Shown one piece after another: positions 338 through 11,110 of a stretch of 64,000 nucleotides of DNA. The notes under the pieces were generated by a model. That model saw only the letters and a list, made by a program, of their open reading frames with translations. It was not told where the DNA came from and ran no database searches. Position 1 is the first letter of the stretch. Each line of letters begins with the position of its first letter. This stretch comes from Planctomycetota bacterium. GTDB lineage: Bacteria > Planctomycetota > Planctomycetia > Pirellulales > UBA1268. Made by a program: the position numbers and the translations under genes. The stretch covers positions 1 to 64,000 of the forward strand of contig VGZO01000003.1 of the NCBI GenBank assembly GCA_016872555.1, in the 5' to 3' direction.

Positions 338-1168
338 TCACGCCTGTTCGCGGAGCAGCGGTGGCGGATCCTCGATGTCGTCGAGCTCCGGGGGCAGCTT
401 GATCTGGCGCATCGTCTCGTCGGTGCGCCGCATCCCCTCGGCGACCTCGTCGACCCGCTTCGCGAGGTCGCCGACGTCGCGTGGCGTGACCGACGACTCG
501 GCGAGCGCGGCGATCTTCGACTCCAGCCGCTCGACCTCGGCGACGATCACGGCGAGCTTGCGCTGCGCCTCCTCGACGTTGCCGAGTCGCGCCTTGTTGG
601 TCCGCAGGTCGTCCTCGAGGACGGCGCGGAGGTCGGTGGACGAGGCAGTGCCCGAGGGGAGCGCCGCCAGGCGCTGCTCGAGGCTCGCGATCCGGCGGCG
701 CAGCGACAGCTCATCGGTGTGGCCGAGGAAGTCGGAGATCGACTGGGCCCCCCGGATCATCCGCAGGTGGCCCCACAGCAGACGGTCGAGTGCTTCCAGC
801 GATGCCGAGTCGATGCCGCCACGGACGCTGCCGGCGAGGTCGACGAGGCGTTCGCAGTGGGTCTTGAGGTGGTCGAATCGCTCGCGCAGTTCCGGCGACA
901 GCGACTTGCGGATCCGCTCGAACGACTGCTGCGACTCCGCTGATCGTTCCTGCCGCCGTGCCTTGGCATCGCGGGCATCGATCGCCGAACGGAAGCGGTC
1001 GCTGCCGATCATGCTGGCGATGTAGTAGATCTCTCCCGCGGCCAGCAGCGGAAGGACGACGCCGGGAAAACCACTGATGTACGCGGCCGCGATCCCCCCG
1101 CCGAGGAACAGCAGGTTCCACTTCGTGGAGAAGGCCGCGTTGAGATAGCTGCCGATGCGCCCGAACAC
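338..1168 (-). CDS. Membrane-anchored coiled-coil protein of the PspA cluster
   Basis: The protein has 276 residues and no family that I recognise. Residues about 16-55 form two hydrophobic segments that look like a membrane hairpin. The rest is charged and mostly helical: about 60-130 resembles a helical bundle, and about 150-245 has the heptad pattern of a coiled coil (repeated E/R/L with few glycines). The C-terminus is short, acidic and proline-rich. It is the last gene of a minus-strand run that begins with pspA and starts 30 bases after the ABC ATPase stop codon, so it is probably co-transcribed. A role in tethering or sensing at the inner membrane is inference from topology and context. 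Confidence 0.85.
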   Translation of the reverse strand: MFGRIGSYLNAAFSTKWNLLFLGGGIAAAYISGFPGVVLPLLAAGEIYYIASMIGSDRFRSAIDARDAKARRQERSAESQQSFERIRKSLSPELRERFDHLKTHCERLVDLAGSVRGGIDSASLEALDRLLWGHLRMIRGAQSISDFLGHTDELSLRRRIASLEQRLAALPSGTASSTDLRAVLEDDLRTNKARLGNVEEAQRKLAVIVAEVERLESKIAALAESSVTPRDVGDLAKRVDEVAEGMRRTDETMRQIKLPPELDDIEDPPPLLREQA

Positions 1169-1198: not shown

Positions 1199-2074
1199 TC
1201 AGAAGGGTCTCGTCGCTTCGGCCTCGATCCGCCCGAGGCGATCCTGGAGATGGTGAACCTTCTCGTGGAACCAGGGCTGTGACTGCGTTTCCCGCGCCGG
1301 CGCCGACGCCGCCGGCATGTGGATCTCCTCGACGATCCGCCCCGGCGTCGTCGCCATCACGAACACCCGGTCTCCAAGATACACCGCCTCCTCGACCGAA
1401 TGGGTCACGAACAGGATCGTCGCCTCGACCTCGCGCCACAGCCGCACCAGCAGGTCCTGCATGTCCAAGCGCGTCGCCGGATCGAGGGCCCCGAACGGCT
1501 CGTCCATGAGGATCACCCGCGGCCTGAGGATCAGCGTCCGGGCGATCGCCACCCGCTGCCGCATTCCCCCCGACAACTCGTGCGGGTACTTGCCGGCGTC
1601 GCGCGTCGGGTCGAGCCCGACCCGGGCGATCCACTCGAGCGCCTCCGCTTCCCGCGCCCGTCGGCCGACGCCCCTGCACTCCAGCCCGAAGGCGACGTTG
1701 GCCAGCACGGTCCGGTTGTCGAAGCTCGTGTAGTCCTGGAACACCATCCCCCGGTCCGCGCCGGGGCCGACGACCGGCCGGCCGAGCACGCGCACGCTGC
1801 CGCTGGTCGGCGGATGCTGGGGAGCGAGGCCGGCGACAAGCCTCAGCACGGTGCTCTTCCCGCAGCCGCTCGGGCCGAGAAACGACGAGATCTCTCCATG
1901 GTCGACGACGTCGGGAATCGTGAACGTTACCCCCTCGATCGCCACGACAGCCCGGCCATCGGCGCCGGCGTAGGTCTTGCCGACGGAGAGAAACTCGACC
2001 GCGGCGGGGCGTTCGGCGGCCGCGGGGCCCGGCGGCGGGGCCGCGGCTGGTTCTCCCCCCGTCTCCGCGCTCAT
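1199..2074 (-). CDS. ABC transporter ATP-binding protein, nitrate/sulfonate/taurine type
   Basis: This 291-residue protein is the cytoplasmic ATPase of an ABC importer of the TauB/SsuB family. Walker A reads GPSGCGKST, the signature is LSGGMRQR, Walker B is VILMDEPFGALD, and the switch histidine lies in FVTHSVEEA. About 25 extra Pro/Ala-rich residues precede the ABC domain. The ATG at 2074 overlaps the permease stop codon as ATGA, so translation is probably coupled. The same frame stays open far upstream, but that part lies antisense-like inside the permease gene in another frame. The substrate cannot be read from the sequence; the neighbours (binding protein with OmpA domain, PspA, AAA ATPase) suggest an envelope-related job. 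Confidence 0.92.
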   Translation of the reverse strand: MSAETGGEPAAAPPPGPAAAERPAAVEFLSVGKTYAGADGRAVVAIEGVTFTIPDVVDHGEISSFLGPSGCGKSTVLRLVAGLAPQHPPTSGSVRVLGRPVVGPGADRGMVFQDYTSFDNRTVLANVAFGLECRGVGRRAREAEALEWIARVGLDPTRDAGKYPHELSGGMRQRVAIARTLILRPRVILMDEPFGALDPATRLDMQDLLVRLWREVEATILFVTHSVEEAVYLGDRVFVMATTPGRIVEEIHMPAASAPARETQSQPWFHEKVHHLQDRLGRIEAEATRPF

Positions 2075-3000
2075 GGCCCGGCCTCCCCTGACCTCGCGCC
2101 CCACCACGCCCCGACGACGTCGTGGACGAACCAGGTCCAGGCCCGTGGCAGCAGTCCCTGGCCACCGTACCGGTAGGGGAACAGGTCGCACTGCAGCCAC
2201 CACAGACCACGGTCGATGAGGTACGCGACCAGCGGGATCGTGAACAGGACGATCAGGATCGGCTCGCGCTGGCCGCGCCGCTGCGAGACGTTGATCAGGT
2301 CGCCGAGGCCCCCCGCGTCGCCCCCGAGCTTCACCACCTCGGCGAGCATCACGTAGCCGAACGCGATCCCGAACAGCAGCCGGAGCGAATTGAAGATCGC
2401 CGGCGCCGCGAGGGGAAGCAGCACCTTGAGGATGATCTGGAGCCGCGACGCCCCGAGCGTCAGCGCGGTGTCGACGTAGCGCTGCGGGACCTCGCGGACC
2501 GCGGCGGTCGTGTCGCTGACGACGAACGCGACGCAGGCGATGAACAGGAACATCACCTTCTGCAGCTCGCCGATGCCGAAGAAGAAGAACGTCAGCGGGA
2601 TCAGGGCCGCGACCGGGATGTTGCGGCCGAAGATCGTCAGCGGCGCGAGAAACGCCCGCAACTCCGCGAAGCAGGCCGCCAACACCCCGAGCGGCACGCC
2701 GACTGCGGCCGCCAGTCCGAAACCGAGCACCACGCGCTTGAGCGTCACGGCGGTGTTGGTGGGGAGCCGCCCCTCGCCAAACACGCGCGGCGCGGCGCTG
2801 ACCGTCTCGGTCGGGCTGGGGAGCGTGGCCGGCCCGATGAACCGGCTCTCCGCCTCGCCGGCGGTGGCGAGGAACCACAGCGCGGCGACCAGCGCGAGGC
2901 TGGTCATCCCCCACAACGCCGCCATCGCCACCGTCGTCTCGCCGCGCATCGGCGCCGCGGGGGGCCGGGGCATGGCGTCACGGGCGACGGTGTCGCTCAT
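2071..3000 (-). CDS. ABC transporter permease, TauC/SsuC-like
   Basis: A 309-residue integral membrane protein of the binding-protein-dependent permease family. The first hydrophobic segment is near residues 24-46, followed by a periplasmic stretch and a core of about five segments. The EAA-type loop that contacts the ATPase reads TLGASRLQIILKVLLP (around residues 180-196). Its start codon overlaps the stop codon of the binding-protein gene by 4 bases, and its own stop overlaps the ATPase start, which gives a tight three-gene transporter unit. The C-terminal 40 residues (after the last segment) are aromatic-rich and longer than in most relatives. Confidence 0.92.
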   Translation of the reverse strand: MSDTVARDAMPRPPAAPMRGETTVAMAALWGMTSLALVAALWFLATAGEAESRFIGPATLPSPTETVSAAPRVFGEGRLPTNTAVTLKRVVLGFGLAAAVGVPLGVLAACFAELRAFLAPLTIFGRNIPVAALIPLTFFFFGIGELQKVMFLFIACVAFVVSDTTAAVREVPQRYVDTALTLGASRLQIILKVLLPLAAPAIFNSLRLLFGIAFGYVMLAEVVKLGGDAGGLGDLINVSQRRGQREPILIVLFTIPLVAYLIDRGLWWLQCDLFPYRYGGQGLLPRAWTWFVHDVVGAWWGARSGEAGP

Positions 3001-4766
3001 TCCTTCTCCGCGGAGTACACCTTGATCTCCACGCGACGGTTGAGGGCATGGTCGTCGGGATGGTCGTCGTCGGCGGGCCGATCCCAGCCGAGGCCATCGA
3101 CGGCGAAGCGGTTGTCGTCGAGGTCGAACTTCTCGACGATCGCCTCCTTCACCGCCCGGGCGCGCTGCAACGACAATTCCTTGACCATCGTCGCCGGTAC
3201 GGCCCCCTTCATCGAACTGTCGGTGTGCCCCTCGATCACGATCCGGGCGTTGCCGAATTGCTTCGCCAGGGCTGCCACCTCGTCGAGCACGAGGTCGACG
3301 CGCGGATCGTAGGGCTGTTCGACGTCCTTCCCGTCGATCTTCTTGATCACCGTCTTCCGCAGTTCGGAGCTGTTCGGGAAGAACTTGATGACGATCGTGT
3401 TGGTGAGGATCTCGTCGTTCTCGGCACGGATCTGGCCGACCGACCGCGGCTGGACCACGGCGGTGTACTCGTCCTTGGTCTCGGCGTATTTCGGCTCGGT
3501 ACCGAGTTTCTGCAGGACCGAGAAATCCATCACCTGATCGAACGGCACGGGATTGTTGGAGATCGCCCCGACCTTCCGATACAGGTAATAAGCCTGCTTC
3601 CAGATCCGCTCGAAGTTGGCGGGATTGTTGCGGTTGAGGAAGAACTGGTAATTCTCCGCCCAGTTGGTCGAGTGGGCATCGCCGAGCATCGACAGCGCGT
3701 CGGCGGCCGGGATCGTGTACCCGTCGGCCATCAGCTGGGCGACGCGGGCCCGGACGTCTTCGCGATTCAGCTCGCTCATCGCGTCGAAGATGCCGCGCAC
3801 GAGGGCCTCGACCTTGTCGGGGTGATCCTTGGCGAAGTCCGCCCGGGCGAACCAGACGTCGGCGATCAGCCGGTTGGCGGTCTTGGTCGTGACCAGCATC
3901 CGGTTGCCCTTGGCTTCGGCGAGGTTGTAGATGTCCGGGGCCCACGACACACAACCCGCGATGCTCTTGTCGCGGTTGAACGCGGCGGCCGCCTCGAACG
4001 CCGTCGTGACGTAGATCATCTCCACGTCGGCCGGCTGCAGCCCGCCGGCGACGAGCATGTTGAGGGCGAAGAACTGGCTCGGTGAGTTCTGCGCCATCAC
4101 GAGCTTCTTGCCGGCGAGATCCTTGACCGTCTTGATCGTGTCGCGGACGACGATCCCATCGCCACCATTGGAGAAGTCGACCTGCTGGTAGACGCGCGGC
4201 ATGATCCGCGAATCCTTGGCGAAGCTGTCGACGAACAACGGCAGCATGTCGAGCGTCGCCCAGCCGATGTGCACCTCACCGGCCGCATAGGCATCCCGCA
4301 TCTGGACGGGGTCGTCGATCAGCACCAGCTCGACCTTGAACGGACGCCCCCCCGGCGCCTGCCAGACCTTGCCCGGCTTGAAGCCGTCGTTGGCGAGGAT
4401 GATCGGGCTCCAGCCGGCCCAGACGTTGAGGGCGAAGCGGACGGTGTCGTTTTCCAGCGGCTTGTAGGCGCTGACCCCCTTCACCGGCGGCAGGCGCTCG
4501 GCGGGCTTGAAGGTGTATTCCTTCACGGTCGTGGGCACGGCGACGTCGGGGGCCTCGGACATGGGACCCCCGGCACTGCTCCCGCCGCCCCCCCCCGGCG
4601 CCGGTCCGCCGCCGCCCGGGCCGGGCCCTCCGGCCATCGGGGCGGCGCGCGGCGCCGCCACGGGGCGGTCGCCGAACATCCCCGCCCGCCACGCGGCCAA
4701 GGCGACCAGTCCGAGGATCACCGCCCACACCGCCAGCCAGAACGGAGCCTTGGGTTCGTTCGCCAT
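2997..4766 (-). CDS. ABC substrate-binding protein fused to a C-terminal OmpA peptidoglycan-binding domain
   Basis: The 589-residue protein has an uncleaved-looking N-terminal membrane anchor (residues 8-26), a Gly/Pro-rich flexible linker (about 35-67), an NMT1/SsuA/TauA-like periplasmic binding domain (about 100-430), and an OmpA-family domain (about 460-589). The OmpA part shows the hallmark motifs VIEGHTDSS, LSLQRARAV and LNRRVEI, which hold the Asp and Arg that bind diaminopimelate in this family. Importer binding proteins normally end after the solute domain, so the architecture would tie a solute receptor to both the inner membrane and peptidoglycan. The permease gene overlaps it by 4 bases. 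Binding by the OmpA domain is inferred from the family, and the ligand is unknown. Confidence 0.93.
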   Translation of the reverse strand: MANEPKAPFWLAVWAVILGLVALAAWRAGMFGDRPVAAPRAAPMAGGPGPGGGGPAPGGGGGSSAGGPMSEAPDVAVPTTVKEYTFKPAERLPPVKGVSAYKPLENDTVRFALNVWAGWSPIILANDGFKPGKVWQAPGGRPFKVELVLIDDPVQMRDAYAAGEVHIGWATLDMLPLFVDSFAKDSRIMPRVYQQVDFSNGGDGIVVRDTIKTVKDLAGKKLVMAQNSPSQFFALNMLVAGGLQPADVEMIYVTTAFEAAAAFNRDKSIAGCVSWAPDIYNLAEAKGNRMLVTTKTANRLIADVWFARADFAKDHPDKVEALVRGIFDAMSELNREDVRARVAQLMADGYTIPAADALSMLGDAHSTNWAENYQFFLNRNNPANFERIWKQAYYLYRKVGAISNNPVPFDQVMDFSVLQKLGTEPKYAETKDEYTAVVQPRSVGQIRAENDEILTNTIVIKFFPNSSELRKTVIKKIDGKDVEQPYDPRVDLVLDEVAALAKQFGNARIVIEGHTDSSMKGAVPATMVKELSLQRARAVKEAIVEKFDLDDNRFAVDGLGWDRPADDDHPDDHALNRRVEIKVYSAEKE

Positions 4767-4813
4767 CGTGTCCCTCGTGAAAAACGGCCGACCGGATCGT
4801 GACCGCCGTCAGA

Positions 4814-5119
4814 TCAACCCTGAAACCGGGTCCGCGGCCGCGCCCGGCCCGCCATGTGAAGCATGTTCATCAGATCGTAGGCCGTGACCTCGCACAGCAG
4901 CTTGGTCACCTTCTCGTGGGCCTCGGGGGAGAGGAGTGGCTCGACTTCCTTCATCAAGGCAACGAGACGCTTCTCCTGGTCCTCGACTTCCTTCGAATCG
5001 ACACGCCCGTCGGCAACCGCATCGACGAACGAGTCGAGCTTCCGCGCGTACTCCTGCAGCAGCGGCGCCTCGGTGGTGGCGTCGAACCAGGGGGTGCTGG
5101 GGCTGGAACCACGGGCCAT
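4814..5119 (-). CDS. Small conserved-looking protein between the AAA ATPase and binding-protein genes
   Basis: A 101-residue protein that I do not recognise. It is soluble, acidic and predicted helical, with a central run of charged residues (about 25-75) and no Cys pair, signal peptide or membrane segment. It starts 81 bases after the AAA ATPase stop codon and ends 47 bases before the start of the SBP-OmpA gene, in the same direction, so it is very likely part of the same operon. The ATG at 5119 is preceded by a GAGG-containing purine stretch. Its position suggests an adaptor for either the ATPase or the transporter; that is inference only. Confidence 0.75.
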   Translation of the reverse strand: MARGSSPSTPWFDATTEAPLLQEYARKLDSFVDAVADGRVDSKEVEDQEKRLVALMKEVEPLLSPEAHEKVTKLLCEVTAYDLMNMLHMAGRARPRTRFQG

Positions 5120-5200
5120 GGTGAACTCCTCGGAGGTTTCTGATCAGCCTATCGGGAAAACGGTCTGCGGTCGTGGACGCCGCCGCTCGGCGGCCGCGGC

Positions 5201-7135
5201 TCAGGTGCCGGCCATGTCGCGTAATTCGGCCATCCGCTCCTGCAGGTCGGCGCGCCCGCCGGGGCGGCTGACGGCCTCGCGCCAGCGCTCGGGCAGGAAG
5301 CGTTTCTCGGTGCATTCGAGGACGGCGGCGATCTCCTGGGCTTCCTTCTCCAACCCCTGCGCCGAGGGAAGGAAGTCGGTGAGTGCCTCCTGGAAATCGG
5401 CATCGCCGATCTCGTCGCCGCCGGGAGCCGGTCGCCCTTCCTCCGCGGCGGCGGCGGCGCGCTCGAGCCCCTTGCGCCGCGCCGCCAGGACGATGCTCTC
5501 GATGTCGGCCCCGGACAGGCCGAGCTCGAGATCCACCTGCCCTGGCAGGCCCGGCGCCAGCTTCACGCGGCATTTCCGCGCCATCGCCTGGAACATCGCC
5601 TCCATCTCGGCCTGATCGTGTGGGTAGAAGAGGGGAATGTGGACTTCCGCCCGCCCCTGTCGCTTGAGGTCGATGGGGAGGCGATCGGGGCGGCTGGTGA
5701 GGAGCATCCAGACGATCTTGCCGCGGTAGCGGGTGTCTCCCATCTGCCGGGCGATCATCGAGAACACCCTGGCGCTGGTTCCCGAGTCACCACCGGACTC
5801 ACGGTTGCCGAGGGCCGCATCGGCCTCGTCGATGATCACCACCACCGGGCCGAGGCTGCGGAGGACGCCGAGGGCGTGCTCGAGATTGCCCTCGGTCTCG
5901 CCGACGTACTTGCTGCGGAAGTTCTTCAGCTCCACGCACGGGATCCCGACGCTGCCGGCATAGCACTCGGCGATGAAGCTCTTGCCGGTACCCACCGGCC
6001 CGCAGATCAGGTAGCCCATCGGCGCGGCATCGAGCTGGCCACGACGGATCGCCTTGGCATCGGCTTCGAGGCGTGCCTTCGCGGCCTCGTGACCGGCGAC
6101 GTTGTCGAGCGTCAGGCGTGGCTGGATGAACTCGATCAGCCCCCGGCACGACCGCTCGATGAGATCTTTCTTCTTCGCGCCGAACTCAGCCCCGTCGGGC
6201 GCCGTGCCCTCCCGCGCCGACAGCGTGACGATCGCCCGGATACTCTCGAGCGTGAGGCCGGCCGAGAGCTTCGACATGCGCTCGACCGCGTCCATCTGTC
6301 CGACCGGCACGCCCACGGCGCGGGCGGTGGCCAGGGCGAAGCGGCGCCGCTCGTCGGCGTCTGGGAGCGGCACCTCGATCGCGGTCACCGCCGGATTGGT
6401 GACGAGACGCGGATGGACCTCGGCCATCGTCTCGGCGAGCAGCACGATCGCGACGTTGACACGGCGGAGCAGTGGATTGGTCGCCCAGCCGACGACCCGG
6501 ACGAGCCGGCCGGCGGTACCACGCGAGGCGCTCGCGGCATCGCCGTCAGGCACGAGGTACTGGGCATGGTCGAGGAAGACGGCGATCTTCTTGCGCTGCT
6601 CGGGAGGATCGGTGAGATTCCGCTCGAGGATCGCGTCGATCGCGGCCAGGGCGGCATCGGGCTCGCGCGGCCAGGCCGAGGCGTTGCCGAGCCGCTCGGA
6701 AAGCCATTGCACCATCGTGCGCAACCGCGACGGATCGGAGCCGGCCAACGGCCGCAGCCCCTTGCCCACGTCGTAGGCCAGGACCACGTCCCAGCTGCCG
6801 AAGACCTCGCGGGCGAGAAAGTCACCGACGGTTCCGAAAGCCGCCGCCGGATCAGCCGCAGGTGTCGTCGTCGCCGACTCGGGGCCGAGCGGCACCAGAT
6901 CGCGGACGTTGCCATGCGCCAGGAAGACGCAACTGGTGCCCGACAGGTAGGCGTCGCCGAGCCGCTCCGCCCACGACGGACACCAATCAGGCAGGGCACC
7001 GCCGGGACGGGTCCCGGTGCCCAGCCCGGTCCGCGGGCCATTGGCAGCCGGCGTGGCGCCCGTCTCGGCAGGGAGCCTGTCCCGGTGGGCCGGAGGGCCT
7101 CCGATCGCCGACGCCCTCGATGAATCGTCGTTCAC
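5201..7135 (-). CDS. Tandem AAA ATPase, first module degenerate
   Basis: I start this at the GTG at 7135, which has a GGAAGG ribosome site about 6 bases upstream; the frame is open to 7249 but that extension is basic and low-complexity. The 644-residue product has a classical AAA module in its second half: Walker A GPVGTGKS (about 378-386), Walker B VVIIDEADAAL (about 430), and a second-region arginine stretch near TSRPDRLP. The first half has an AAA-like fold pattern with a Walker-B-like KIAVFLDHAQYL but no P-loop, so it looks like a degenerate ATPase module. It sits 199 bases after pspA. AAA proteins of this kind remodel protein complexes; working on PspA polymers or the membrane transporter is inference. 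Confidence 0.9.
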   Translation of the reverse strand: MNDDSSRASAIGGPPAHRDRLPAETGATPAANGPRTGLGTGTRPGGALPDWCPSWAERLGDAYLSGTSCVFLAHGNVRDLVPLGPESATTTPAADPAAAFGTVGDFLAREVFGSWDVVLAYDVGKGLRPLAGSDPSRLRTMVQWLSERLGNASAWPREPDAALAAIDAILERNLTDPPEQRKKIAVFLDHAQYLVPDGDAASASRGTAGRLVRVVGWATNPLLRRVNVAIVLLAETMAEVHPRLVTNPAVTAIEVPLPDADERRRFALATARAVGVPVGQMDAVERMSKLSAGLTLESIRAIVTLSAREGTAPDGAEFGAKKKDLIERSCRGLIEFIQPRLTLDNVAGHEAAKARLEADAKAIRRGQLDAAPMGYLICGPVGTGKSFIAECYAGSVGIPCVELKNFRSKYVGETEGNLEHALGVLRSLGPVVVIIDEADAALGNRESGGDSGTSARVFSMIARQMGDTRYRGKIVWMLLTSRPDRLPIDLKRQGRAEVHIPLFYPHDQAEMEAMFQAMARKCRVKLAPGLPGQVDLELGLSGADIESIVLAARRKGLERAAAAAEEGRPAPGGDEIGDADFQEALTDFLPSAQGLEKEAQEIAAVLECTEKRFLPERWREAVSRPGGRADLQERMAELRDMAGT

Positions 7136-7334
7136 GGCACCTTCCGTGCGCCCGGGCGCACGCCTCGTCTGGCCATGGGTCCCACTGACGCCGGACCGTC
7201 GGTCGCGGGGGGTACGGGACACGCCGCCCGTGGGACGGGGCGCGGCCACGGATGGGCTGCACGATCCGTCGCCAGGCTGGCCGCAACGGTCCCCACGGAA
7301 AAGTCGGGGGCGTCGCCGTTGTGAACGGAGCGCC

Positions 7335-8084
7335 TCAGCCTGAGATCTGTCGGAGCCGTTCTGACCCGAGCAGCTTCTCGTCGTCCGTGACCTTCGACGT
7401 CTCGGGAGTCACCATCCCCAACTCGCGCTCGAACTCACGGAGGGCCGCGTCGGCCATCTGCGACTCGACTCGCTGCTCGTCCTTGATCTTGTCGAGCCCG
7501 TCGCCGGACAGGTCGGCGGCGACGCGCACCTTCGCGCGGTTGAGCCCGATCTTGTCCTGGATCACGTCCTCGATCTGGCCGAAGTCGGTGGTGACGTCGA
7601 ACTTGAAGGTCGAGGCGAGCTTCGCCAACTCGGCTTCGGCCCGCGACATCTTCAGGTCGGCGTCGTACTTCTGGATCTTGTGCTTGAGGTCGGCGAGCTT
7701 CTTGGTGGCATGCTTCACTTTGGTGACGTTGTTGCCGTACGCCGTCTCGTGGAGCTTGAGCTGGGCCTCGTTCTCCTCGAGGTCCTTGCGAGCACGCTGC
7801 AGTTCGAGCGCGAACTTCGCCGCCGTCTCGCGCTCGCCCGCCTGGAGGTAGGCCTTGACCTGCGCCTCGAGTTTGGCGACGTGCTGGCGGTCTCCCTCGG
7901 CCTGACGAGCGACCCGCTCGACGAGCGCCCGGTACTGCTCCAGCCCCTCGCGCCCCTCCTTCATCTGGTCGACGGCCTTGTCGTATTCGTACTGCAGCTG
8001 CGCGATCGGATCGGCGGTCCAGAAAAAGTTGGCGATCTTGTTGACCTGGGCGGCCATCGCCTTCCACAGCTTGCCGAGGATCAT
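7335..8084 (-). CDS. pspA: PspA/IM30 family envelope-stress protein
   Basis: A 249-residue protein that is almost entirely helical and charged, the hallmark of the PspA/Vipp1 (IM30, ESCRT-III-like) superfamily. The N-terminus carries an amphipathic-type helix (ILGKLWKAMAAQVNKI), followed by the family pattern FFWTADPIAQLQYEYDKAVDQ and long heptad coiled coils (about 30-200). Family members coat and repair the inner membrane after loss of proton motive force. Its length fits the family. It is the first gene of the seven-gene minus-strand cluster. No PspF, PspB or PspC homologue is visible here, so regulation must differ from the enterobacterial system, although a sigma-54-like promoter lies upstream. 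Confidence 0.92.
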   Translation of the reverse strand: MILGKLWKAMAAQVNKIANFFWTADPIAQLQYEYDKAVDQMKEGREGLEQYRALVERVARQAEGDRQHVAKLEAQVKAYLQAGERETAAKFALELQRARKDLEENEAQLKLHETAYGNNVTKVKHATKKLADLKHKIQKYDADLKMSRAEAELAKLASTFKFDVTTDFGQIEDVIQDKIGLNRAKVRVAADLSGDGLDKIKDEQRVESQMADAALREFERELGMVTPETSKVTDDEKLLGSERLRQISG

Positions 8085-8349: not shown

Positions 8350-9648
8350 TCACTTCGTGACGACGATCTCGGGACGGGCCGAGCGGAGAGCCGCGAGGGC
8401 GTCGTCGGCGACCGGTGCGAAGCTGAGGTCGAGGGCCCGCAGCGCCGGCAGCCGCCCGACGGCCGCCAGGCCCGGCCCGGAGACCTTGGTGCCGGCCAGG
8501 TCGAGCGCGGCGAGCTTCGTCGAACCGGTCAGCCGCCCGAGCCCCGCGTCGGTGACCCGGGTGTTCCGCAGCACCAGCTTGGTGAGGGCCGGCAGCCGAC
8601 CGATCGTGGTCAGCCCCTCGTCGCCGACCTTCGTGTCCCACAGGTCGAGGTCGGCGAGCTTCTCGAGCCGGCCGAGGTGGGCGACACCGGCATCGCCGAT
8701 CCCCGTCTCCGCCAGGTCGAGGAGGACGAGATTGGTGAGGCCGGCGACGTGGACGAGCGCGGCATCGTCGATCAGCGTGCCGCGCAGTTCGAGGCGCTTG
8801 AGCTTGCCGAGACCCTTGAGATGGGCGAGCCCGTCGCCGCCGATGAACGTCCGCATCACGTTGATCTCGTCGATGTCCCCCTTGGTGGCGAACGGCGCCA
8901 GTCCGGCGTCGGTGATCTGGCCGTCCTCGGCGGCGAACCCGCGGAGCTTCGGCAGCCGGGCGATCGCCGCCAGACCGCGGTCGGTGACCCCGGGGCAGCG
9001 GAGTTTGACCCGCTCCAGGCTCGCCATCCCGGCGACGTGCTCAAGGCCGGCGTCGCCGATCAGCGAGCAACCGCGCAGATCGAGCACGCGGAGCTTGGTC
9101 AGGGGCAGGAGGTGGGCCAGACCGGCGTCGGTGAAATTGTTGTAGAGCAGGACGAGTTGCTCGAGGCCCGTGAGCTTCCCCACGGTCTCGAGCGCCGCAT
9201 CGGAAAGGTTCGAGCTGCGGCGAAGGTTGAGGATCTTGAGGTTCCGCAGTTTCGCCAACTCGCCGATGCCGGCATCGGTGACGTCGGTATTCTCGAGGAC
9301 CAACTGCTGCAGCGATCCGATCGCCGCCAGCGCGGGCATGCCGGCGTCGCCGATCTCGGCGCCCCAGACCTCGAGCGATTGCAGCCCCGGGAGCGTGCCG
9401 AGGACACGGAGGTCGGCATCGGTGGCGGGCCGGTTGGCGAGGTTCACCTTCGTCACCCGGCCGTCGGTCCCGTGCTCGACGCTCCCGCCGCGCGACTTGA
9501 CCAGCGCGACGGCGGCGGCCTCCGCAGGGATCGGCTCGAGGGCCAGGGCCGGGGCGCCGCCGGCCGCGAGGGCCAGCGCCACGATCAGCGTTGCCCCACG
9601 CCGCGTCACGAGCGCGGACCGCCGGCCAGTTGCACCGTCGCCTGTCAC
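8350..9648 (-). CDS. Secreted leucine-rich-repeat protein
   Basis: The GTG at 9648 is preceded by a strong AAGGAGG site, so I start there and not at the upstream end of the open frame. The 432-residue product begins with a Sec signal (basic start, hydrophobic run about 20-36, ALA-type cleavage near AGGAPALA). Residues about 75-430 are some fourteen leucine-rich repeats of the cysteine-poor 'T-D-A-G-L-A-x-L' class (for example VTDAGIGELAKLRNLKIL), a type that is very common in planctomycetes. LRR domains bind proteins, but no partner is suggested by the neighbours: the downstream gene is pspA, 265 bases away, and the upstream gene is an oxidoreductase. Confidence 0.88.
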   Translation of the reverse strand: MTGDGATGRRSALVTRRGATLIVALALAAGGAPALALEPIPAEAAAVALVKSRGGSVEHGTDGRVTKVNLANRPATDADLRVLGTLPGLQSLEVWGAEIGDAGMPALAAIGSLQQLVLENTDVTDAGIGELAKLRNLKILNLRRSSNLSDAALETVGKLTGLEQLVLLYNNFTDAGLAHLLPLTKLRVLDLRGCSLIGDAGLEHVAGMASLERVKLRCPGVTDRGLAAIARLPKLRGFAAEDGQITDAGLAPFATKGDIDEINVMRTFIGGDGLAHLKGLGKLKRLELRGTLIDDAALVHVAGLTNLVLLDLAETGIGDAGVAHLGRLEKLADLDLWDTKVGDEGLTTIGRLPALTKLVLRNTRVTDAGLGRLTGSTKLAALDLAGTKVSGPGLAAVGRLPALRALDLSFAPVADDALAALRSARPEIVVTK

Positions 9649-9694
9649 AGCCCCTCCTTCACTGATCGATCCCTGCGTCCGCCGGCGGGTCGGC

Positions 9695-11110
9695 TCAGGC
9701 CGACCAGCCATCGCGGGCGGTCGGCCGGATGATCGCCTCCACCTCGGGGGCGTTCTTGGCGACCAACTTCACCGGATCCCACTCGATCTTCTTCCCCTTG
9801 GTTTCGGCCGCGTCGGCGGCCCAGACCGCGAGGTTCCCCAGCAGGATCGTCTCGGTGAGCGGTCCGGCGTAGTCGGGGAAGTTCGACATCGGCTGCGGGC
9901 CGCCCTTGATCGCATTGACCCACTCGATGAAATGGCCCGGCGACGGCGTGAACTCGGCGTCGGCGGGTGCCTTGCCGCTCTTGAGCTTGAAGCCCTTCTC
10001 ACAGTAGTCGCCGGGGGCGTAGAGCGTGTCCTTGTCGCCGATGCAGAGGATGCCACTCGAGGCGGTCTTGAACGGCAGCGTCTCCTCCTTTCCGTCGGCG
10101 TCCTTCTTGGTCTCACCGGGGAAGCCGGCGAACAACCCCTCCTCGGGGAGCTTGCCGCCGTCGTACCACACCACCTTCAACCCCGCCCGGGCTCCGATCG
10201 TCGGGAAATCGAAGTCGATGATCGACCACTTCGGATAGGTCTCCTTGTTGTGGCCGCTGGTCAGCGCCTGGACGCTCGACGGGTCGCGGAGGTTGAGCGC
10301 CATGAACGGCATGTTGAACGTGTGGCAGGCCATGTCGCCGAGCGCACCGGTGCCGAAATCCCAGAAGCCACGCCAGCTGAAGGGGTGGTAGCCGGTGCCG
10401 TAGGGCCGGACCGGCGCCGGGCCGAGCCACAGATTCCAGTCGAGGTTGGCGGGAACCGGCGCCTCCGCCGGGCGCCCCCCGCCCTGCGGCCAGACCGGCC
10501 GGTTGGTCCAGACGTGCAGTTCCTTGACCGTGCCCAACCCTCCCGACTTGATGAACGCGGCGGCCTTCCGCAGCGAGCTCTCGGCGGTGCCCTGGTTGCC
10601 CATCTGCGTGGCGAGCTTCTTGGCGCGGGCCAGTTCACCCATCAGCCGCGCCTCGGAGATCGCCCGGGTCAGCGGCTTCTGGCAGAAGCAGTGCTTCCCC
10701 ATCCCCATCGCCATCATCGCCGCGGCGAAGTGGGTGTGGTCGGGCGTGCTGACGGTGACGGCATCGATCTCCTTGCCGACCTCGGCGAGCATCTTCCGGT
10801 AGTCCTGGAACGTCTTCGCTCCCTCGAAGGCCTTCTCGCCGCGCTTCAGTTGGTTGCTGTCGACGTCGGCGACCGCGACCACCTTTCCGTTGCGGGCTGC
10901 GTCGGCCGAATCGCTCTGCCCCTTGCCACCGATGCCGATGCAGGCGAAGCGGATCTCGGAGTTGGCGCTCGTCGCCGGCTTGTCGTCGGCGCGGACCTCG
11001 GGAGCGATCCACACGCCACCGGCGATGCCGGCCAGCGCTCCGGCACCGGTGGCACCGGTGGCGATGAAGTCACGACGGGAGGCGCTGGAACGGGAACGTC
11101 GCGTGGCCAT
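9695..11110 (-). CDS. Gfo/Idh/MocA family oxidoreductase, Tat-exported
   Basis: I start at the ATG at 11110, which follows an AGGAGA ribosome site. The 471-residue protein opens with a twin-arginine signal (SASRRDFIATGATGAGALAG), then the NAD(P)-binding Rossmann fold with FACIGIGGKG (about 50-60) and the family motif VTVSTPDHTHF and CQKPLT around residues 115-145. The second half is the GFO_IDH_MocA_C alpha/beta domain with HPFSWRGFWDFGTGALGDMACH. Exported members of this family are abundant in planctomycetes and act on sugars or sugar-like substrates, probably with a tightly bound cofactor. The exact substrate cannot be told. The LRR gene follows 46 bases later. Confidence 0.93.
   Translation of the reverse strand: MATRRSRSSASRRDFIATGATGAGALAGIAGGVWIAPEVRADDKPATSANSEIRFACIGIGGKGQSDSADAARNGKVVAVADVDSNQLKRGEKAFEGAKTFQDYRKMLAEVGKEIDAVTVSTPDHTHFAAAMMAMGMGKHCFCQKPLTRAISEARLMGELARAKKLATQMGNQGTAESSLRKAAAFIKSGGLGTVKELHVWTNRPVWPQGGGRPAEAPVPANLDWNLWLGPAPVRPYGTGYHPFSWRGFWDFGTGALGDMACHTFNMPFMALNLRDPSSVQALTSGHNKETYPKWSIIDFDFPTIGARAGLKVVWYDGGKLPEEGLFAGFPGETKKDADGKEETLPFKTASSGILCIGDKDTLYAPGDYCEKGFKLKSGKAPADAEFTPSPGHFIEWVNAIKGGPQPMSNFPDYAGPLTETILLGNLAVWAADAAETKGKKIEWDPVKLVAKNAPEVEAIIRPTARDGWSA

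Follow-up and report, generated by a model that had tools for sequence, protein, structure and literature searches.

A two-module AAA ATPase with a P-loop-less first module and its tail-bearing PspA partner in Planctomycetota suggest a bacterial counterpart of the Vps4/ESCRT-III machine

The window analyzed here is a stretch of 64,000 nucleotides from a planctomycete of the order Pirellulales (contig VGZO01000003.1, positions 1 to 64,000). Near the beginning of this stretch, the genes for a two-module AAA ATPase, a PspA/IM30 family protein and several transport-related proteins are encoded on the same strand. The features of this region, all on the reverse strand, are the following:

338-1168, reverse strand: all-helical coiled-coil protein with a hydrophobic, probably membrane-spanning N-terminus; recurs in these operons.
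1199-2161, reverse strand: ABC ATPase, TauB-like, with matches below the model cut-offs.
2071-3003, reverse strand: ABC permease, TauC/NtrB-like, with matches below the model cut-offs.
2997-4766, reverse strand: NMT1-like substrate-binding domain (E = 3.2e-9) fused to an OmpA domain (E = 7e-12).
4814-5119, reverse strand: conserved 101-aa protein adjoining the ATPase gene.
5201-7135, reverse strand: two-module AAA ATPase of 644 aa, with a GTG start at 7135.
6131-6988, reverse strand: first module of the ATPase, residues about 50-335, with a predicted AAA fold lacking the P-loop (alignment, AlphaFold2 model and structural superposition).
6899-6913, reverse strand: G-N-V-R-D, residues 75-79, conserved in the family alignment and replacing the lost P-loop.
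5336-6124, reverse strand: second module, residues about 338-600, a classical AAA ATPase, intact in its sequence (Pfam and family alignment).
5978-6001, reverse strand: Walker A, GPVGTGKS, residues 379-386 (GxxxxGK[ST] in 53/53).
5897-5911, reverse strand: pore loop 1, K-Y-V-G-E, residues 409-413 (aromatic residue at 410 in 53/53).
5819-5839, reverse strand: Walker B, VIIDEAD, residues 433-439 (D436, E437 and D439 in 53/53).
5651-5662, reverse strand: R-Q-G-R, residues 492-495, with the two SRH arginines (R492 and R495 in 53/53).
7335-8084, reverse strand: PspA/IM30 family protein of 249 aa, the partner (PF04012, E = 2.4e-13).
7365-7376, reverse strand: K-L-L-G, residues 237-240 of the PspA, C-terminal tail motif (tail comparison).

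An earlier note on this sequence, made from the letters alone, had described the product of 5201-7135 as a AAA protein preceded by a P-loop-less module, and this observation proved to be correct. The N-terminal ~45 residues show low conservation and a low-confidence predicted structure, and a second in-frame GTG for the same reading frame lies at 7249. Pfam recognizes a AAA domain at residues 376-501 only (E = 4.6e-23), with nothing detected in the first half at E 0.1. Conservation was assessed in an alignment of 53 family members, hand-chosen from the loci and including two homologs encoded on Bacillota plasmids. The GxxxxGK[ST] signature, present in all second modules of this alignment, is found in none of the 53 first modules, in agreement with the proposed loss of the P-loop; the motif that occupies its place, G-N-[VI]-x-D, is strongly conserved (G75 in 53/53, N76 in 46/53 and D79 in 51/53). 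The Walker-B-like segment that the first half was said to retain is only partly preserved: residue 189 is acidic in 42/53 sequences, but the expected Glu that follows is replaced in at least 49/53 (with the six commonest letters tallied). Similarly, the second half, which was said to have all AAA motifs, does contain Walker A, Walker B, the SRH arginines and the pore aromatic; in 50/53, however, Ser, Cys or Ala takes the place of the sensor-1 Asn. Overall, the first module is conserved to a lesser extent than the second.

The AlphaFold2 model of the ATPase was built from an alignment of 41 sequences and has a mean pLDDT of 63.6. Within the first module, most ten-residue pLDDT means lie between 70 and 92, falling to 50-69 around residues 81-100, 191-230 and 241-250. 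The model of this module superposes, with Z of about 12, on p97 D1 (5kiy_A: Z 12.4, rmsd 3.4, 215 aligned residues; 3hu2_A: Z 12.0, rmsd 3.3, 210 aligned), a PAN chimera (3whk_E: Z 12.0, rmsd 4.3, 204 aligned) and Vps4 (5uie_F: Z 11.8, rmsd 3.6, 206 aligned), so that the first module, as modeled, is a AAA fold. The second module was modeled poorly, with stretches below 50, probably because the input alignment was shallow; its identity is nevertheless clear from its sequence.

The ATPase resembles several known AAA families without belonging to any of those considered. The likeness to Vps4 and CdvC consists in the classical AAA motor, with Walker A and B, SRH arginines and an aromatic pore loop (53/53), and in a partner from the ESCRT-III superfamily whose C-terminal tail is conserved. 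The difference is that a AAA-fold module without a P-loop stands in place of the MIT domain: no MIT domain was detected in the Pfam scan at E 0.1, and the N-terminal part models as a AAA fold. Membership was rejected on these grounds and on the NCBIfam CdvC score (49 bits, against a cut-off of 650). Cdc48/p97, which has a P-loop in both modules, likewise contains two tandem AAA modules and is among the best sequence and fold matches of the ATPase; this assignment was also rejected, given a score of 58.7 bits against a cut-off of 802.65 and the first-module P-loop in 0/53, and the Pfam scan did not reveal a Cdc48 N-domain. FtsH was dismissed as well (40.4 bits against a cut-off of 600; no peptidase domain at E 0.1). 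Our initial, tentative guess had been a Ycf46-like protein.

Outside Planctomycetota, homologs of the ATPase were found on two plasmids of Paenibacillaceae (Bacillota), with 25.1% identity over 88% of the query and 27.5% over 70%. Neither has an annotated PspA within 7 kb, and the iterated PspA profile detected none there either; the same holds for a shorter ATPase match on an Arthrobacter plasmid, with no annotated PspA within 5 kb and none found with the iterated profile. The P-loop-less first module, which is shared by the Bacillota plasmid proteins and by a sister clade within the phylum (see below), is thus not a PspA-specific invention, and the plasmid homologs lacking a nearby PspA imply that this architecture either predates the pairing with PspA or extends beyond it.

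The partner in the window is a member of the PspA/IM30/Vipp1 family: it scores 50.7 bits against PF04012, above the curated cut-off of 33.9, and the profile of linked PspAs of the window type (A5, 22 rows) matches the solved chains of Protein sll0617 (E = 6e-13), Vipp1 and PspA. Of 45 close relatives identified with peptide patterns, 42 have a PspA upstream of the ATPase; for the remaining three, the retrieved sequence starts inside the gene or less than 130 bases from the ATPase match. More distant planctomycete relatives show the gene orders PspA-AAA alone, PspA-coil-AAA and PspA-SBP-permease-ATPase-coil-AAA. Four genomes of family f22 (L208, L209, L211 and L214) have a PspA-SBP-permease-ATPase-coil operon with no AAA gene in the fetched stretch; the AAA gene of these genomes is located on a different contig. 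The 101-aa protein has no match in Pfam at E 0.1 or in NCBIfam at E 0.01. At one locus (L073, 8042-10219), the ATPase frame continues into the 101-aa protein, through either a natural fusion or a sequencing error; if real, the fusion would tie this protein to the ATPase.

Kinship of the coiled-coil protein (338-1168) with ESCRT-III is not supported, with hhalign probabilities of 0.4% in one comparison and of 1.5% and 1.1% in another (0.3% for the reversed control of the latter), and with Foldseek and VIA-align matches that are weak and generally helical. Such kinship may nonetheless exist; Snf7 homologs with a TM segment are mentioned by Ravi et al. (PMC11237479). A gene for a leucine-rich-repeat protein (8350-9711) lies upstream of pspA on the same strand, and a same-strand match upstream of pspA was seen in 17/45 close relatives, many other stretches being too short to reveal one. 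One operon contains a tandem pair of SBP-OmpA genes (L089, 12466-16011). The genome that contains the window encodes a second PspA_IM30 match (E = 7.4e-12; L130, L221), on the 8.2-kb contig C92, where none of the operon profiles matched.

In previous work, Ravi et al. 2024 (PMC11237479) described a protein that adjoins PspA in some bacterial clades and contains two AAA domains, of which the first is inactive, as well as longer operons with an ABC ATPase, a permease and a PBPB-OmpA protein; they termed the PspA-AAA association occasional and already drew the comparison with Snf7 and Vps4. The window shows the same arrangement, with two AAA domains, the first apparently inactivated by P-loop loss, encoded next to pspA in an operon with an ABC ATPase, a permease and a PBPB-OmpA protein; the correspondence to their example OGG56892.1 is one of description. 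The pairing of pspA with this ATPase is therefore already known, and what the earlier note picked out is a rediscovery of a described gene association. Here we add co-occurrence statistics across 294 genomes, C-terminal motifs matched to the ATPase clade, and a diverged PspA family in a sister clade. In the main text of Ravi et al. 2024 (PMC11237479), clade-matched tails or a diverged PspA partner were not found, the words "tail" and "motif" being used there with other meanings. Such a PspA tail was also not found in the literature searched (titles and beginnings of abstracts, and passages of PMC9239133, PMC10936438, PMC11746142 and PMC13051332), and it may still have been published.

To quantify the association, we surveyed 294 genomes of one phylum, Planctomycetota. 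The ATPase family was detected at E 1e-30 or better in 53 genomes, of which 45 make up the main ATPase list and 8 have distant ATPases only. The A5 profile matched at 140 bits or more in 45 genomes, with the cut set after viewing the gap between 147 and 62 bits; in the A5 and PF04012 searches, scoring was limited to nine first-look candidates per genome, and matches may therefore have been overlooked. The main ATPase and the A5-type PspA were both present in 42 genomes, the ATPase alone in 3 (G040, G061 and G079), the PspA alone in 3 (G102, G131 and G187) and neither in 246 (Fisher p = 1e-43, for genomes that are not independent and search profiles that were built from linked loci). When all 53 ATPase genomes were considered, the corresponding counts were 42, 11, 3 and 238 (p = 6e-37). 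The 42 both-positive genomes span 18 family codes, as read by eye, and therefore do not represent one lineage. Classical PspA served as a control and was counted in the 25 genomes where a PF04012 match reached about 84 bits; weaker matches, including partial ones of ~135 residues in the class of the window, were counted on neither side. Against the main ATPase list, it yielded 6, 39, 19 and 230 genomes (p = 0.24), that is, classical PspA is without such a tie to the ATPase family. If the diverged PspA type described below (A6) is included, a special PspA is present in 52/53 ATPase genomes (42 by A5 and 10 by A6) and in 3/241 genomes without the ATPase family.

Among the discordant genomes, G187 contains, on a contig of its own, a match to the first module of the ATPase (query positions 52-135, 40% identity). 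G131 (82% complete) encodes a tail-bearing PspA; the ATPase family was not found there at E 1e-30, and its AAA matches are weaker (2e-18) and group outside the family in the tree. In G102 (79% complete), the linked-type PspA is without the tail motif, and here, too, weaker AAA matches were detected in place of the ATPase family. In G061, the ATPase is present and profile and Pfam searches did not find a PspA.

The two genes lie within 10 kb of each other on one contig in 29/42 genomes, and in all 29 they are on the same strand. Among the other 13, the ATPase of G090 and G211 is at the start of a contig, so that linkage there may have been missed. Five genomes show a clear separation, with several kilobases of ATPase flank lacking a PspA (G009, G076, G149, G164 and G178, seen in stretches L096, L085, L109, L092 and L110).

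Linked PspAs diverge down to 16% identity with the PspA of the window, and yet in nearly all of them a variable linker, in many cases rich in Ala and Pro, leads to a terminal [KR]-x-[ILM]-G, to which a P is often added. This motif, which was defined after viewing the tails, is found in the last 20 residues of 78/84 distinct linked-type PspA sequences and of 22/24 representatives below 70% identity, 11/13 below 50% and 7/8 below 40%; the 84 sequences and the 24 representatives include the PspAs of G102 and G131, where the ATPase family was not found. When the tails were shuffled, a mean of 0.38/24 carried the motif. Extending the search to the last 45 residues gives 24/24, but two of these matches (L093 and L207) fall outside the tail, which is why the last 20 residues were used. 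In this respect, the partner differs from classical members of the family: the motif is absent from all 27 classical PspAs of the same phylum that were compared (loci L132-L138 and L223-L242, the high end of the PF04012 list). The motif is retained by a PspA in 12 of the 13 genomes for which linkage was not observed, the exception being G090 with another ending. The PspAs of G003, G108 and G090, all of which have the ATPase, lack a [KR]-x-[ILM]-G tail and share the ending RQ[KR]I[AS]E (recognized by eye in three sequences), perhaps a third tail form in three divergent genomes.

A tree of 59 ATPases (quick search, no bootstrap, midpoint root) contains a main clade of 40 rows with SH-aLRT support of 98, in which 39/40 rows come from genomes with the linked PspA type, and a sister clade of 10 rows with support of 100. 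The ATPases of G003 and G108 form a long branch of their own, and that of G090 is absent from the tree. A grouping with unrelated AAA clades not linked to PspA, which the earlier note named as speaking against the partnership, was not seen within Planctomycetota: the ATPases of genomes with linked PspA make up one clade.

The sister clade has a PspA of its own. An iterated search identified a diverged PspA-like coiled-coil protein at 8 loci with sister-clade ATPases (for example, L103 12192-13019, L099 9673-10680 and L104 11975-12841; the others are L098, L100-L102 and L106), so that 8/10 sister-clade rows have it next to the ATPase gene or elsewhere in the stretch. The search did not find it in stretches L097 (G040) and L105 (G079); in both genomes, it is present elsewhere. 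There was no Pfam match in the two members scanned (L103 and L099), and the Pfam PspA searches of the genomes reported none of these places. The profile of the diverged family (A6) aligned to the PspA profile over 216 columns with 96.7% probability (E = 4e-10), compared with 1.0% for the reversed control. At E 1e-6, A6 matched in 10/294 genomes (G004, G040, G079, G094, G111, G121, G126, G144, G262 and G288), each of which also has the ATPase; they are the 8 with distant ATPases only and two of the three ATPase-only genomes (G040 and G079); the match is weak in G040 (2e-25) and 5e-122 or better in the others. All nine strong sister-clade PspAs have ΦPE at or beside the C-terminal end (LPE in 8/9 and IPEA in 1/9, L098), and the weak one of G040 lacks the LPE ending. 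Among the 23 residues fixed differently between the two ATPase clades, 17 are in the second module and 4 in the first; the reader of the tail could thus be either module or a C-terminal extension.

Gene clusters travel together, and joint transfer could in principle account for the co-occurrence, with the tail serving something else, such as membrane binding, a protease or the 101-aa protein. We regard this as very unlikely: in several genomes, most clearly the five named above, long-flanked contigs carry the ATPase and the PspA separately, and yet both are present and the tail is kept; moreover, the tail types track the ATPase clade. Linkage, co-occurrence that persists when the genes are unlinked, and matched tail motifs together lend strong support to the specific partnership with PspA proposed in the earlier note. 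Its fuller reading, as a PspA-specific disassemblase, is partly supported, the disassembly component being drawn by analogy.

Taken together, an ATPase with a dead first half and a tail-bearing PspA suggest a bacterial counterpart of the Vps4/ESCRT-III machine. We consider it probable that this is a dedicated PspA ATPase that is recruited by the PspA tails and pulls subunits from PspA polymers, Vps4-like but built differently. We infer that the second module would be the motor, forming a hexameric ring, hydrolyzing ATP and gripping the polypeptide with the aromatic pore loop. The first module, having kept the AAA fold and presumably lost normal ATP binding, most likely would be a passive ring into which the substrate is taken up, in the role that the MIT domain has in Vps4. 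As its substrate, the ATPase would have the PspA with which it co-occurs; the tail motif of this PspA ([KR]-x-[ILM]-G or ΦPE) would act like the MIT-interacting motif of ESCRT-III. By binding the tail and threading the subunit, the ATPase would remodel or dissolve a PspA coat on the inner membrane. The coiled-coil membrane protein and the OmpA-anchored ABC transporter that are encoded alongside probably organize the sites of action, and the OmpA-anchored binding protein may position the system where the envelope meets the inner membrane. It may also be that the PspA tail binds another component of the operon instead.

A more specific version of the tail-recruited disassembly scheme, which we put forward tentatively, is that in this bacterial ESCRT-III/Vps4 pair the PspA motif would be read by the dead first ring, which would have taken over this task from the MIT domain. 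Reader and motif would have changed together at least twice, yielding three tail codes ([KR]-x-[ILM]-G-P, ΦPE and RQ[KR]I[AS]E), one for each of three ATPase lineages, with PspA coats being actively dismantled.

In a rival view, the ATPase does not dismantle polymers but serves as a chaperone for the assembly or loading of PspA, or of a complex of PspA with the transporter, at the membrane. Ravi et al. 2024 (PMC11237479) have proposed that PspA acts in assembly together with AAA+ and other chaperones; they also note that the control of assembly is unknown for PspA homologs without an associated AAA ATPase. According to Junglas et al. 2024 (PMC11746142), chaperones or PspF may perform both disassembly and assembly in a manner analogous to Vps4. 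The presence of ABC and OmpA components in the operons would also fit a loading function, whereas the aromatic pore loop and the intact second module fit threading, an activity that chaperones have as well, so that nothing here is decisive, and we judge an assembly chaperone to be unlikely. The pair bears on the question of a dedicated ATPase for the disassembly of bacterial PspA coats. In one phylum, the ATPase is almost never found without its PspA, and the short, defined tail can be deleted or swapped; with a constant pair and a short tail, disassembly becomes testable with two purified proteins and one peptide.

Yet another possibility is that the ATPase acts mainly on the ABC transporter or on the coiled-coil membrane protein, with PspA as a membrane scaffold that brings it there. 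Many main-clade ATPases, or their PspAs, are accompanied by genes for the ABC components, SBP-OmpA and the coiled-coil protein, and OmpA/SBP genes together with a gene for a helical membrane protein of another family are found near 3/8 sister-clade ATPases (L098, L103 and L104), two of which also have permease and ABC ATPase genes beside them (the neighbor Pfam scans covered 20 chosen ORFs of L097-L099 and L102-L105). PspA is, however, the more constant partner. In L083, L094, L095, L111 and L114, the PspA-ATPase pair occurs with no ABC gene detected in the fetched stretch, and the tail motif is retained. We consider the transporter or the coiled-coil protein quite improbable as the main client.

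Two further loci showed unusual gene content. In the sister-clade stretch L098, a gene for a von Willebrand A protein (4714-5718) is located between the OmpA-domain gene and the SBP-like gene. In G142 (L222, 4091-7973), a AAA protein with limited similarity to the ATPase of the window (E = 3e-8), which resembles FtsH, is encoded just upstream of two PspA genes; both of these PspAs are without the tail motif, and the locus represents a different PspA-AAA pairing.
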